A stretch of DNA of 46,053 bases from Chthoniobacter flavus (GTDB taxonomy: Bacteria; Verrucomicrobiota; Verrucomicrobiia; Chthoniobacterales; Terrimicrobiaceae): the NCBI GenBank assembly GCA_945883435.1, contig CAMCXK010000019.1, forward strand, positions 1 through 46,053, given 5' to 3'. A program made the position numbers and the translations under genes. Below the pieces are notes generated by a model that did no database searches, was not told the DNA's origin, and saw only the letters and a list, made by a program, of their open reading frames with translations. Positions 18,912-25,625 of the stretch are shown one piece after another (positions within the stretch are counted from its first letter, which is position 1; every line of letters starts with the position of its first letter).

Positions 18912-19622
18912 ATGAAAAACACCAAACAACCCGCCCGCAAAAGCCCCAAGCAGCGCATTCTCCTCGTCGAGGACCACCCGATGACCCGCATGGGATTGAA
19001 GATGATGATCGACAGCGAGCCGAATCTCGAGGTTTGCGGCGAAGCGGCCACGGCGAGCGAGGGCCTCGAGGCCGCAGTCCGTTTGCATCCCGACCTCGTG
19101 CTTACCGATGTGACGCTTCCGGGACGCAGCGGGTTTGAGTTGGTGCAGGACATCCACGCCCAATGCCCGGACCTGCCGGTGCTGATCCTGTCCATGCACT
19201 CGGAAACAAGCTACGCCCGACGGGCCTTGGAGATCGGCGCGCGCGGATACATCATGAAAAGCGAGCACAGCCAGAAGGTGCTGGAGGCCATCCGCACAGT
19301 CTTGAGCGGCCGAATTTATGTGAGCGAGGCGATCGCGGGCATGCTTTTGGAATTCCTCTCCCAAAAATCGAAACAGAAGCAATCGGGGATTGATGCATTG
19401 AGTCCGCGCGAGTTCGAGGTGTTCAAACTCCTGGGTGAGGGGGTTTCGGTTCTCTCGGTGTCCAAGAGGCTCAATCTCAGCCCGAAAACAGTCGAAACCC
19501 ATCGCGCACACATCAAACAAAAGCTTCACGCCACCTCGGCGGCCCACTTGATTGCGATGGCAGCCGGCTGGATCGCTCGGCAAAGTCTCGCCGGGCAGCC
19601 CCTGGCTGCGTTAGGTGTGTGA
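18912..19622 (+). CDS. Response regulator, NarL/FixJ family (REC + LuxR HTH)
   Basis: The 236-residue regulator has a receiver domain with acidic pair E20-D21, phospho-acceptor D66 in LVLTDVTLPG and the conserved Lys in GYIMKSEH. A LuxR-type helix-turn-helix follows (about 168-225): LSPREFEVFKLLGEG, then LNLSPKTVETHRAHIKQKL. It follows the histidine kinase by two bases and ends one base before the CheB-CheR gene. I chose ATG 18912; the frame stays open further back but overlaps the kinase. Target promoters are unknown. Confidence 0.94.
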   Translation: MKNTKQPARKSPKQRILLVEDHPMTRMGLKMMIDSEPNLEVCGEAATASEGLEAAVRLHPDLVLTDVTLPGRSGFELVQDIHAQCPDLPVLILSMHSETSYARRALEIGARGYIMKSEHSQKVLEAIRTVLSGRIYVSEAIAGMLLEFLSQKSKQKQSGIDALSPREFEVFKLLGEGVSVLSVSKRLNLSPKTVETHRAHIKQKLHATSAAHLIAMAAGWIARQSLAGQPLAALGV

Positions 19623-19623
19623 A

Positions 19624-22158
19624 ATGTCCGAACTTCCTCCTGCCCATCGCCCGAACGAACGGTTCCCTGTTGTTGTAATCGGTAGCTCGGCGGGTGGGTT
19701 GGAGCCGCTGGGTGAGTTTCTCTCCCAGATGGCAGGCTGCGCGCATGCGGCATTTTTTGTGGTGTGCCACTTTGCCGCCGGGCACGAAAGCCACCTGGTC
19801 GATCTTCTCCGCCGGCACTCCACCCTTCCGGTGGAATGGGCGCTCGACGAAACTGTCGTTTCTCCCGGTAAAATCCTTGTGTCTCCGGTGGGAAAGGCGT
19901 TGGAGTTTTCGGATCTCGGAGTTCGTCTGTCACCCTGTTGCGATTCCTTGGCGTATCCGATTGACGCATTGTTTGAATCCGCGGCGTGCCATTTCCGATC
20001 GTCTGTAATCGCGGTGGTTCTTTCGGGGGCGGGATCCGACGGGGCAAATGGTGCGCGGTGCGTCAAAGAGCATGGTGGGATGGTGCTGGTGCAGGAGCCG
20101 GGAAGTGCTGAGTTTTCCTCAATGCCGAGGCATGCGCTGCTCTCGGCGGCCGCCGACCTGACGTTGCCTCCCGCTGACCTGGCGCGGGAGCTGTGTCGAT
20201 TGATTTCGGGACACATGCTTCAATCATCGGTCGCCTCTCCAGACGATCCGGAAGATGATTTGAACGGGGTTCGGCGAATCACGGCCATTTTGAAGCGTCA
20301 GACTGGTCTGGACCTCTCGGCCTACAAAATCGAGAGTGTTTTACGTCGCATTCAGCGGCGTATGGGCATCTGCCGTGTCGGGCAGTTGGAAAACTACATT
20401 CCCCTACTTCAGCGAAGCCAAACCGAGCGGGAGGCGCTTTCCAAGGACATGCTGATCAGTGTCACAAGATTCTTCCGCGACTCGGCGGTTTTTGAACACC
20501 TGCGCTCCGCAGTGCTCCCGGCCGTGGTTCGTGAAGCGGCAGGGCGCCCTCTTCGCTTCTGGATCCCCGGCTGTGCCACCGGCGAGGAGGTCTACTCAAT
20601 CGGTATCCTTCTGGAAGAGGTCTTACGGGAATCGGGCGAGGCCGGGAACTCGTGTAAATTCTTCGCCACCGACCTCGACCGCGCCGCTCTCGATGCGGCA
20701 GGGCAGGGAATTTACCCGGCTTCGATCGCACGCGATGTGCCGCCGGATTTGCTCGAACGCTACTTTTCCCGCCAAGATGAACATTTTCAAATCTGCCGGG
20801 CGATTCGCGAACGCATCGTTTTTGCGCGCCACAACCTTCTCAAGGATCCGCCGTTCACCCGACTCGATATGGTGAGCTGCCGGAATGTGCTGATCTACCT
20901 TCAACCGGTTGCCCAGCATCGGGTGCTCTCGATTTTGCACTATGCCCTCCGTCCGGAAGGAGTCCTCTTGCTGGGGCAAAGTGAGACCCTTGGCGATCTT
21001 CAGAACGACTTTTCCACCGTGGATTCGAAGCACCATGTGTTTCGTAAAAAAAATACCGTTCCCAACCTTCTGCCCGATGCTTTGCAATTCGGCTTGAGCC
21101 TGCCTGCTGGTTCCCTGTTCGAGGCTCCCCGCCCTGCTGTGCCAACGGAGCGTCCCTCGTCGCGGTTTGCCGAGGCGTTTACCAACCGCATCCTCTCCCG
21201 TTTGGGGCGCACCTGTTTTGTGCTCAGTGAGCAGTTGGACGTTCTTTATAGTTTCGGAAACCCCTCGCGCTATGCGACATTGAGCGAGGGGCGAACCTCG
21301 ATGAAGTTGACCGATCTACTGCCCAAGCGCATTTCTGTGACCTTGGCGGGTGCGGCTGGCAAGGTTCTCCACGAGGGCAAGCCGTTTCAATATGGACCGG
21401 TTTCGATCGTTGAGGAATCGCCCAGTCCCACTGCGAACATCACGGTCGAGTCCTTTCGAAACCCCGGTGACGAGAGGCCTTATCTACTCGTTTTCATAGA
21501 GGAGGCGGAAAGCAGCCCTGGTATGGAGGCTTCGGCGTTCGACCTTAACGAAAGTCTGCGTCGCATCACGGAATTGGAGGATGAACTCCGGGCCAGCAAA
21601 AACCGCCTCAAAACCGCCATCGAAGAACTCGAGGCCTCGAACGAGGAACTTCAAACCTCGAACGAAGAATTGCAGGCCTCCAACGAGGAGTTGCAAAGCA
21701 CCAACGAGGAACTCGAGAGCGTGAACGAGGAACTCCAGACCCTCAACAACGATCACCAATCGAAAATCGCCGAAATCACCAAGGCGAATGAGGATCTGGA
21801 CAATTTCATCTCAAGTGCCGGCATAGCCACGGTTTTTCTGGATTCGAAGCTGCGTATTCGCCGGTTTACGCCGGGAGCCGCCCAGAAGACGGGCCTTTTG
21901 GCTCACGATATCGGGCGTTCGATCGAAGCATTTTCCGCGCCTCTTCTGGCCAAAGCGGCCGATGCCGCACGACGTATTCTTGCCGGCGAAACCATGGTTG
22001 AGCACACACTCCGCGATCCGGAGGGGATCACGGTGCTTCGCTCCACACCATTTATCCGGAAGGATGGTTCGCGCGCCGGCGCGACCGTCAGTTTCATCCA
22101 ATTCGGTCCGCAGGTCCTGGAAGCGGAATCGGGATTGCCCACCGGGCCGGAAATCTGA
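19624..22158 (+). CDS. CheB-CheR-PAS fusion protein (chemotaxis methylesterase/methyltransferase type)
   Basis: 844 residues in one chain. The CheB-like esterase (about 14-195) has Ser22 in IGSSAGG, His49 in VVCHFAAGH and Asp in [10 protein letters not shown], with no receiver domain. The CheR methyltransferase (about 215-475) has [15 protein letters not shown], the SAM loop [30 protein letters not shown] and [10 protein letters not shown] coiled coil of near-perfect seven-residue units (SNEELQT-type, about 665-715) precedes a PAS domain (about 725-835). There is no kinase domain, and no receptor or CheA gene lies nearby. It probably works with the upstream two-component pair. Confidence 0.93.
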
Positions 22159-22174
22159 TTCAAATGCTCCTTCC

Positions 22175-24991
22175 ATGAGCAATCCCTTCAACGCGCTTCG
22201 TTCTTTCGACTCCGGACTTTCAACTCCCTCCAGCCTTTATTCCCTGCCAGCACTCGAAGAATCAGGCGTCGGCCCGATCTCGAAACTCCCCGTGAGCATC
22301 CGCATCGTTCTGGAGTCTGTGCTCCGCAACTGCGACGGAAAAAAAGTTCAGGCGCGCGATGTCGAAACACTTGCCAACTGGAATGCCAAGGCTCCTGCGC
22401 CAGAGGAAATTCCGTTTGTTGTCGCCCGTATCGTGCTGCAGGACTTCACCGGCGTGCCGCTTCTCGTGGACCTCGCCGCCATGCGCAGCGCGGTCAAAAC
22501 GCTCGGGTCGAATCCCGCCATCATCGAACCCCTCGTGCCGGTCGATCTTGTCGTGGACCACTCGGTGCAGGTGGATTTCTACGGCTCCGCAAATGCGCTC
22601 CAACTCAACCTCGACATGGAATTCCAGCGCAACCGCGAGCGCTACCAATTCCTCAAATGGGGCCAGCAGGCGTTCAAAACCTTCGGCGTCGTCCCGCCCG
22701 GCATCGGCATCGTCCACCAGGTGAACCTCGAGTATCTCGCGAAGGGCGTGCTCTCCCAGGAATCTGAAATCTCAAATCTCAAATCTCAAATCTTCTACCC
22801 CGACACGCTCGTCGGCACCGATTCGCATACGACCATGATCAACGGCCTCGGCGTCGTCGGCTGGGGCGTGGGCGGCATCGAAGCCGAGGCTGGCATGCTC
22901 GGCCAGCCGGTGTATTTCCTGACTCCCGAAGTCGTGGGCGTCAACCTCACCGGCCGCCTGCGCGAGGGCGTGACCGCGACCGACCTCGCCCTCCATGTCA
23001 CCCAGCTTCTTCGCGCCGCGAAGGTGGTGGGAAAATTTGTGGAGTTCTACGGCGAGGGCGCCGCCAGCCTGCCGCTCACCGACCGCGCGACCATCGCCAA
23101 TATGGCGCCCGAATACGGCGCGACGATGGGCTTCTTCCCCGTCGATTCCGAATCCGTCAACTACCTCGCCGCCACCGGTCGCACCGACGCGCAATGTCGC
23201 GCCTTCGAAAACTACTTCAAAGCCCAAAACCTTTTTGGGATGCCGAAAAAAGGCGACATCGCTTACAGCGTCGACATGGATCTCGACCTGTCGACCGTCC
23301 AGCCCGGCGTTGCAGGCCCCAAGCGCCCGCAGGACCGCATCAATGTCCCCGAGCTCAAAAACAGCTTCACCAGCCTGCTCACGAAATCCGTCGCCGAAGG
23401 CGGCTACGGCAAGGCATTGAACGACCTCTCCAAGACGGCTGCCGTCAAGCGCAACGGCTTGCAGAGCGCCGACGAGGCCGAAATGGTCAATGACCGCCCG
23501 ACCCCTGATGCCATCACCGCCGCACACGCCAAAGGCGACCTCCACTTGCGCAACGGTTCGGTCCTCATCGCCGCCATCACCAGTTGCACAAACACCAGCA
23601 ACCCGAGTGTGATGATCGGGGCCGGTCTCCTCGCCAAAAAAGCCGCCCTACGCGGCCTCCGCGTCGATCCCGCCGTCAAAACCTCGCTCGCCCCCGGCTC
23701 CCGCGTGGTGAAAGACTACCTCGAAACAACCGGCCTCCAGCCCTATCTCGACCAACTTGGCTTCCAGATCGTCGGCTACGGCTGCACGACCTGCATCGGC
23801 AACTCCGGCCCGCTCGCGCCCGAGATCGAAAGCGCCATCGTGGAGAACGACCTCGTCACCGCCGCTGTCCTCTCGGGCAACCGCAACTTCGAGGCCCGCA
23901 TCCACCAAAACATCCGCGCCAATTTCCTCATGTCGCCACCGCTCGTCGTCGCCTACGCGCTCGCCGGCCGCGTGGACATCGACCTCACGACGGAACCGAT
24001 CGCCAAGGACAAGGACGGTGTGGAGGTTTTCCTGAAAGACATCTGGCCGAGCCTTCAGGAGATCCGCCACGAAATGCAGACCGCCCTCAAGCCCGAGGTC
24101 TTCAAAAAACTCTACACCGGCTTCGCAGACCAAAACCCCAAGTGGAACGAAGTGCCATCCAGCGTCGGTCAAATTTACGAGTGGGACCGCAAGAGCACCT
24201 ATATCCAAGAGCCGCCGTTCTTCGAGAACTTCGGCATGGAAGCCGGCACGATCTCAAACATCACCGCCGCCCGCGCGATGGGCATCTTCGGAGATAGCGT
24301 CACGACCGACCACATCTCGCCCGCCGGGGCCATCAAAGCCAGTTCGCCCGCCGGAAAATATCTCGTCGAAAACGGCATCGAGGCTGTCGATTTCAACAGC
24401 TACGGCAGCCGCCGGGGCAATGACCGCGTCATGACCCGTGGCACCTTCGCCAACGTGCGGATCAAAAACCTCATGATCCCCGCGAAAGCCGACGGCACCC
24501 GCGTGGAAGGCGGCCTCACGATCCACCAGCCCACCGGTGAGCAAATGAGCATCTACGACGCCTGCATGAAATACCAGGCCGCCGGCACCCCGCTCATCGT
24601 CTTCGCCGGACAGGAATACGGCACCGGCTCCAGCCGCGACTGGGCTGCCAAAGGCACCCGTCTCCTCGGAGTCAAAGCCGTCGTCGCCCAAAGCTTCGAA
24701 CGCATCCACCGCTCCAACCTCGTCGGCATGGGAGTCCTCCCGCTCCAATTCCCGGACGGAGTCAGTGCGCAATCGCTCAACCTCGACGGGACTGAATCCT
24801 ACGACATCACCGGCCTCAGCGACAGCATCCAACCCCGCCAGGATGTCACCCTCACCATCACGCGCCAAGACGGCACCAAGCTCGAGCAGACCGTCAAACT
24901 CCGCATCGATACCCCGATCGAAGTCGACTACTACCGCCACGGCGGCATTTTGCCGTTTGTGTTAAGGCAGTTGATCGCGGAGGCGAAGTAA
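22175..24991 (+). CDS. acnA: Aconitate hydratase A
   Basis: The 938-residue TCA-cycle enzyme interconverts citrate and isocitrate through aconitate. The three 4Fe-4S ligands are in [13 protein letters not shown] and [41 protein letters not shown] and [19 protein letters not shown] are strong signatures. It is about 45 residues longer than E. coli AcnA. Near residues 196-207 the loop before YPDTLVGTD is replaced by [11 protein letters not shown], encoded by a heptamer repeat. It starts 16 bases after the CheB-CheR gene but has no functional tie to it. Confidence 0.96.
22767..22793 (+). repeat. Heptamer tandem repeat inside acnA
   Basis: Almost four copies of the 7-mer AAATCTC run without interruption from 22767 to 22793; the seven bases before it (AATCTGA, about 22760-22766) are a degenerate copy. 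Three copies equal 21 bases, so the tract stays in frame and encodes EISNLKSQI. Its AT richness differs sharply from the GC-rich surrounding gene, which points to insertion and expansion rather than ordinary coding drift. Confidence 0.9.
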
Positions 24992-24998
24992 AGAGAGC

Positions 24999-25025
24999 CT
25001 CTCACGGAGGCACAAAGGCACGGAG
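24999..25025 (+). repeat. Left inverted repeat of the GxxExxY element
   Basis: The arm begins CTCTCACGGAGGCACAAAGG and ends CACGGAG. It pairs with 25414-25440 with two mismatches, both G in this arm against A in the complement of the other. It abuts the ATG of the enclosed gene, so its terminal GGAG touches the start codon and cannot act as a normally spaced ribosome site. Confidence 0.85.
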
Positions 25026-25529
25026 ATGAGGGAGAATGATATCGGGACGATCATTGTGGATTCGGCCGTGGAATTGCACCGGAACCTCGGGCCGGGGTTG
25101 CTGGAGACCGTTTATGAGGTGACTTTGGCGCGCTCGTGGGAACGCCGAGGGTTGGCAGTTCAGCGACAGGTTGCGGTTCCCATCGAATACCAGGGCGAAA
25201 CTTTCAGCGAAGGCTTCCGGGCAGACCTCATCGTCGGAGGCCTGGTGATCGTGGAACTCAAATCCATCGAGCGCGTCACACCTGCCCACAAGAAACAACT
25301 GCTGACCTACCTCCGACTGACCGGACTCAAACTCGGCTACCTGTTAAATTTCGGCGAAGCACTCATGCGCGACGGAATCACCCGCACGATCAACGGTTCA
25401 ATCGATTCCCAACCTCTGTGTCTTTGTGCCTCCGTGAGAGAAGATCCTCCTCGACCGCCTTCAGGCGTTGAGAAGACTGAATCCCGGCTTTCCCGACTTC
25501 ATGACGCCGTTGGCAAAAAAGTCCGTTGA
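25026..25529 (+). CDS. GxxExxY protein, PD-(D/E)XK nuclease-like
   Basis: 167 residues. The name-giving motif is G24-LL-E27-TV-Y30. A nuclease-like core follows: Asp67 in GFRADLIV, then E77-L-K79 in VIVELKS, and a Q-x-x-x-Y helix (KKQLLTYLRLTGL), together the PD-(D/E)XK pattern. The conserved core ends near residue 128 (TRTINGSID). The frame then reads through the right inverted repeat, giving LCLCASVRE, and runs 28 more residues into flanking DNA. That tail is probably an accident of insertion. The biological role of the family is unsettled. Confidence 0.82.
   Translation: MRENDIGTIIVDSAVELHRNLGPGLLETVYEVTLARSWERRGLAVQRQVAVPIEYQGETFSEGFRADLIVGGLVIVELKSIERVTPAHKKQLLTYLRLTGLKLGYLLNFGEALMRDGITRTINGSIDSQPLCLCASVREDPPRPPSGVEKTESRLSRLHDAVGKKVR
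25414..25440 (-). repeat. Right inverted repeat of the GxxExxY element
   Basis: This arm reads CTCTGTGTCTTTGTGCCTCC and then GTGAGAG on the plus strand; its complement matches 24999-25025 at 25 of 27 positions. It lies inside the 3' part of the open frame and is translated as LCLCASVRE, which does not belong to the conserved protein core. Confidence 0.85.
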
Positions 25530-25625
25530 GTATCTCGTCTTTGGAGGGAGGGGGACGGAAACCACCGCCGACTGGCGCTCATCCAGATCGCGGAACTATT
25601 TCCTGACACGCCAAATTCCCGCTGG

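Follow-up and report, generated by a model that had tools for sequence, protein, structure and literature searches.

Does a small nuclease-like gene set between inverted repeats downstream of acnA form a mobile unit and, if so, what would move it? The question is raised by a 46,053-nt stretch of Chthoniobacter flavus DNA (contig CAMCXK010000019.1; the window), which belongs to a 2.84-Mb, 97.6%-complete assembly. The initial annotation saw in it a compact mobile element whose GxxExxY nuclease moves or copies the unit, as RAYT transposases do for REP sequences. The GxxExxY gene family is common, but no role has been settled for it and no paper on its function was found; two papers name GxxExxY without giving it a function, and one names PF13366.

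With a probability of roughly 60%, the 442-bp stretch (measured from arm to arm) is a member of a very widespread family in which inverted arms of tandem units surround one single-domain Cas4/RecB-like PD-(D/E)XK nuclease gene, with copying driven by that nuclease. Genes and arms occur repeatedly as a pair and diverge in step, conservation extends to both, and at defined junctions the whole block is either there or missing. The best reading is a mobile unit of the chromosome that moves slowly and operates as RAYT/REPIN does, but with an unrelated enzyme, which would act on the arms. Specifically, the nuclease would recognise the repeated units that form its own ends, as well as those of gene-less units that match, and would cut or trim DNA there. 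Host replication or repair would then complete copying into a new intergenic spot, with the unit spreading rarely and afterwards passing vertically.

The unit downstream of acnA

The left arm (positions 24,999 to 25,025, forward strand; CTCTCACGGAGGCACAAAGGCACGGAG) consists of three tandem octamer-type units with CTCTC at its outer end. The right arm (25,414 to 25,440, reverse strand; CTCTGTGTCTTTGTGCCTCCGTGAGAG) is an inverted copy of the left, identified by an inverted-repeat (IR) search with a shuffle test. The arms, 27 nt each and separated by 388 nt, are 93% complementary, in agreement with the 25 of 27 matching positions originally described, and each comprises approximately three tandem octamers, CACGGAGG-CACAAAGG-CACGGAG. 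No inverted repeat other than this pair was reported in the 1.2-kb region around the unit, and its IR score in the window was 21, whereas 20 shuffles reached 11 at most. Upstream, the left arm follows the end of the AcnA (aconitate hydratase) open frame by 7 nt; that frame spans 21,962 to 24,991 on the forward strand, with an uncertain start and homology from residue 75. Just upstream of acnA, positions 19,615 to 22,158 hold one open frame with CheB and CheR domains and a coiled-coil stretch.

The nuclease frame opens, as the initial annotation stated, with an ATG at the first base past the left arm (25,026). Its conserved GxxExxY/PDDEXK_3 domain of 127 aa (25,026 to 25,406, forward strand) was recognised from profiles, invariant columns, AlphaFold2 and dN/dS. 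Beyond it lies a read-through tail (25,407 to 25,529, forward strand), made up of the translated right arm, flank and a stop. The tail LCLCASVRE, correctly recognised at the outset as right-arm translation, exists because the window copy has lost its stop codon: it reads CAA just before the right arm, where most same-locus orthologues have TAA or TGA.

The protein belongs to the GxxExxY family, since its scores exceed the curated cut-offs of both TIGR04256 (GxxExxY; E 2.8e-37, 127.6 bits against 35) and PF13366 (PDDEXK_3; E 6.4e-37, 126.9 bits against 22). It carries the GxxExxY motif together with the D...ExK catalytic residues, the key positions of the domain being G24xxE27xxY30, D67, E77-L-K79, Q91xxxY95 and N108; the D67...E77-L-K79 series had already been pointed out and is present. 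In an alignment of 91 sequences, G24, E27, Y30 and K79 are invariant, and D67 and E77 nearly so. The conserved Q91xxxY95 suits a nuclease of RecB/Cas4 type.

An AlphaFold2 model (pLDDT 94) gives the nuclease a predicted Cas4/RecB/lambda-exonuclease-like fold, based on structural matches to solved members. The best PDB matches of the predicted fold were Cas4 SSO0001, LHK-Exo and lambda exonuclease, and comparison of the model with 4ic1 gave a Foldseek probability of 1.00 (E 4e-3), Z 9.4 and rmsd 3.9 with 101 aligned. Searches for solved relatives by sequence returned a chance-level match at best, and profile libraries returned weak Cas4-like matches and a weak match to a defence-associated nuclease profile. 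With these enzymes the GxxExxY nuclease shares predicted fold, catalytic motif order and QxxxY, but it differs from them in its 127-aa length and its framing by arms. It is not an iron-sulphur Cas4, because the conserved domain has no cysteine and hence none of the four iron-sulphur cysteines of Cas4. Purifying selection on the gene is strong: dN/dS was 0.025–0.053 between the window copy and its five acnA-locus orthologues, with synonymous sites near saturation in most comparisons.

The window genome carries this one GxxExxY gene and no second. The search for further arm copies that the initial annotation had proposed found none in the full genome at up to 3 mismatches. The single copy counts against mobility.

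Arms and gene-less units across genomes

GxxExxY loci and neighbouring control ORFs were given an identical inverted-repeat test, with a threshold IR score of at least 13, in 40 loci from the genus, 62 from the wider order (chosen regardless of arms) and 80 from many phyla. Arms above the threshold framed 30/39 GxxExxY genes in the genus, 52/62 in the order and 54/74 across phyla, against 5/342, 2/127 and 16/749 control ORFs, respectively. The totals (136/175 against 23/1,218) are not fully independent, as the cross-phylum survey overlaps the genus and order sets by a few loci. Gene and arms therefore form a recurrent unit in relatives, as had been proposed.

Arms generally consist of approximately three tandem units with a period of 7–11 nt. 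Close relatives of the window protein are framed by the octamers CACGGAGG and CGCAGAGG; distant GxxExxY subfamilies have the units ACAGGATTT, GACAGAATTA, CCGCAGATT, CAGGAAAG, CGCGAAACA and others. Arm similarity tracks protein identity (Mantel r 0.59; 0 of 999 permutations), including among pairs below 60% protein identity (r 0.40; 0 of 999 permutations). Counted against mobility, such a correlation is also expected under plain joint inheritance of the block. The observation that a left arm is best matched by its own right arm (108/136) was set aside as circular, since arms had been chosen as the best inverted match.

The family is patchily distributed, with several paralogues per genome, and was found in 104 of 195 genomes sampled from the phylum. 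GxxExxY genes were present in 7 of 72,556 plasmid records and in 0 of 50,697 phages, which again counts against mobility. This distribution bears on a quite improbable explanation, that of a homing-type or defence nuclease that cuts foreign or empty DNA, with the unit copied through recombination or retained for its protective effect. It would be in line with the strong purifying selection on this small PD-(D/E)XK enzyme, its patchy occurrence, its several paralogues and the weak profile matches to a defence-associated nuclease and to Cas4. The same goes for the precedent of Rpn nucleases, which were first named recombination-promoting and later reported as anti-phage toxins with internal antitoxins (PMC5350276, PMC10327210). 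However, a plain defence gene gives no role to conserved inverted arms or to gene-less units, GxxExxY genes are almost never on plasmids or phages, and no conserved partner gene stands alongside them in the loci read.

Gene-less units sharing the arms of gene-bearing units do exist in relatives. Inverted short-repeat pairs forming gene-less hairpins, as in RAYT/REPIN systems, were found there and not in the window genome, and they lie both beside and away from GxxExxY genes. For example, genome G046 has a full unit amid tandem hairpin units of ~100 bp with matching arms (DNA fold z near -6). Among arrays listed in nine genomes, neighbours no more than 700 nt apart were arranged (+,-) in 23 cases and (-,+) in 3, and their spacings fell into two groups, of 39–243 nt and 401–633 nt. 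Two of the long-spaced pairs were confirmed to enclose a listed GxxExxY gene (G198:C86 and G122:C32).

Octamer arrays were detected in 60/104 phylum genomes with GxxExxY and in 6/91 without (Fisher p 4e-15, relatedness ignored), amounting to 1,039 copies in the former and 23 in the latter. Counted against a tie between the two is the closed genome G137, where 167 octamer arrays accompany one GxxExxY gene with a different arm unit, so that a matching gene is not needed for arrays to spread or persist. As the units differ, the possibility that these arrays are copies of that gene's own arms was rejected. In G137 (5.73 Mb, single contig), the 167 CGCGAAGG-type arrays lie in a REP-like repeat (L358–L387, L400–L405). 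Among the first 100 places listed, they are mostly on one strand at negative GC skew and on the other at positive, and their orientation seems tied to replication direction. A dispersed gene-less repeat of ~190 bp with a conserved middle in G054 (L261–L268) was kept separate, as its array ends face the opposite way to the GxxExxY arms.

Relation to known systems

REPINs are doublets of REP sequences associated with REP-associated tyrosine transposases, the RAYTs (PMC3116915). Like these, GxxExxY units combine a chromosomal gene for a DNA-cutting enzyme with flanking inverted short repeats, and they have gene-less hairpin units in intergenic positions and tandem clusters. Unlike RAYTs, the enzyme is a PD-(D/E)XK nuclease and not an HUH tyrosine transposase; the arms are tandem arrays of 7–11-nt units that pair across the gene, with no internal palindrome or GTAG tag. 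Only PDDEXK_3/GxxExxY profiles match the protein, its predicted fold is PD-(D/E)XK, and no HUH tyrosine (Y1) transposase domain was found in it. Because the enzyme class differs, GxxExxY units are not members of RAYT/REPIN. The likeness to RAYTs that the initial annotation drew thus fits in organisation, but not in enzyme family. Nor does the unit contain the DDE transposase domain of classical insertion sequences.

A link between small repeats and a PD-(D/E)XK nuclease gene has been suggested before, for Yhg-A/Rpn elements (PD-(D/E)XK_2) as well as for the hupL MITE of Thiomargarita (PMC4853749). Yhg-A/Rpn nucleases belong to PF04754/PF12784, whereas the GxxExxY family is PF13366, and in the hupL MITE a single 19-bp inverted repeat with a direct repeat of 10 bp takes the place of tandem-unit arms (PMC4853749). 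The 21 class 2 paired sites of Geobacter metallireducens (PMC2700814, Additional file 8) share the design of the arms, with a unit, TCTCCGTS[Y], nearly identical to the octamers. They are described there as presumed regulator binding sites, and the main text, as far as read, draws no connection to GxxExxY.

These sites bring in a further explanation, in which the arms bind a host chromosomal protein (IHF/HU-like) or form a regulatory hairpin, and the nuclease gene profits from such sites as a passenger. In PMC2700814, triple TCTCCGTS[Y] repeats paired on opposite strands are predicted global regulator sites. The gene-less arrays even in the 6 genomes without a detected gene point the same way, as does the transcript of the window unit, which folds with its arms paired (z -3.5). 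Nevertheless, this explanation is unlikely: arm sequence shifts with nuclease subfamily within one genus, which is unexpected for a single host protein, IR framing sets GxxExxY genes apart from the other ORFs compared, and arrays associate with the gene across genomes.

No paper was found that joins GxxExxY to arm repeats or reports the arm sequences, in a search that covered mainly open literature. A broader reading, held tentatively and at somewhat less than even odds, is that GxxExxY and its tandem-unit arms make up a class of minimal mobile DNA, ~0.45 kb in size, that spans phyla and has gone unrecognised. Here, the nuclease alone, with host replication or repair, would move itself and feed gene-less hairpins, each lineage reading its own unit. 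Once nuclease and arms are tied together, what was an annotation label becomes an enzyme-substrate pair that can be tested. The tie would also account for dispersed 7–11-nt tandem repeats in many bacteria, and extend the short list of bacterial DNA-spreading enzymes by one nuclease class.

Occupied and empty sites

The 15 genus relatives were classed where their acnA end could be recovered: five carry the acnA-locus unit, which with the window genome makes 6 species, and 4 lack it. It lies directly after acnA in G003, G004, G008 and G013 and ~1.5 kb downstream in G007; G010, G011, G012 and G015 have other sequence in its place. Between species, left and right arms have mean identities of 97% and 95% (each arm being 93–100% identical among the six copies), compared with 58% for third codon positions of the gene and a mean of 36% over 30 nt for the right flank (25,441 to 25,560 in the window), which is unconserved and different in each genome. 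Arms and protein are thus both conserved between species, so that either selection holds both or copying keeps the arms alike. The occupied acnA sites look old and vertically inherited, not like recent jumps. A vertical pattern at this locus across all relatives had been named as grounds against mobility; the occupied copies do look vertical, but four species lack the unit. In unit-less relatives (L105, L107, L109, L110), the region after acnA has, by eye, the look of an accessory hotspot with toxin-antitoxin-like small genes.

Sharp-ended occupied and empty sites in sister species, such as the initial annotation had proposed to seek downstream of acnA, were found at two other operon junctions in the genus and not for the acnA copy. 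At the first, which precedes a gene named by eye as a cyclopropane-fatty-acid-type methyltransferase, two genes overlap in ATGA and the unit is absent in eight genus genomes (G005, G013, G006, G014, G008, G007, G012 and G001). In G015, G003, G004 and G010, the unit sits inside this overlap; its left border reads ATGATC or ATGAAC and its right border ATGATC, so that both neighbouring genes remain intact. As the overlap is what the genomes commonly show, insertion is the more economical reading; the comparisons are between species, not strains, so direct observation does not separate insertion from precise loss. The second, an ABC-permease-type junction, is empty in most genus genomes, including G000, and holds gene-less inverted arrays in G014 and the gene, arms and extra miniature units in G001.

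Across 106 units, adjacent direct repeats were no commoner than in shuffled flank pairs, indicating no general target-site duplication and none of the fixed-length kind left by classical DDE insertion sequences. As a separate case, a 16-nt direct repeat (AAGACGGGGGATGCTC) flanks one unit, at L330, an exception among units. The gene upstream is co-directional in 69/96 units; ordinary operon genes show about the same, and this was therefore left out as evidence. In 43 of the 69, the upstream stop codon lies -20 to +10 nt from the left arm.

The claim of a compact mobile element accordingly holds in part: the recurrent unit, the empty sites and the gene-less units speak for it, and the single copy here, the age of the acnA copy and the lack of a general target duplication against. 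Another explanation is that the block is what is left of a larger transposon, decayed or domesticated and once moved by a transposase encoded elsewhere, with the nuclease no longer the mover. Profile searches detected neither a DDE nor an HUH or recombinase domain in the unit, target duplication is not uniform, and the vertical copies are old, all in keeping with such a remnant. It is nonetheless very unlikely, as dN/dS near 0.03 and arm conservation favour a present function, and the same minimal layout is found in many phyla with arm units that differ, unlike the product of a single foreign transposase.

For the slow-moving unit preferred here, the recurrence of purQ-purL, ABC-permease and prepilin loci in different genera counts against, since it can mean old vertical retention. 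GxxExxY units stand directly before purL in two families, with differing arm units (L064–L070, L292). These purL-adjacent units are mostly located between purQ and purL, and in G010 the unit follows another gene.
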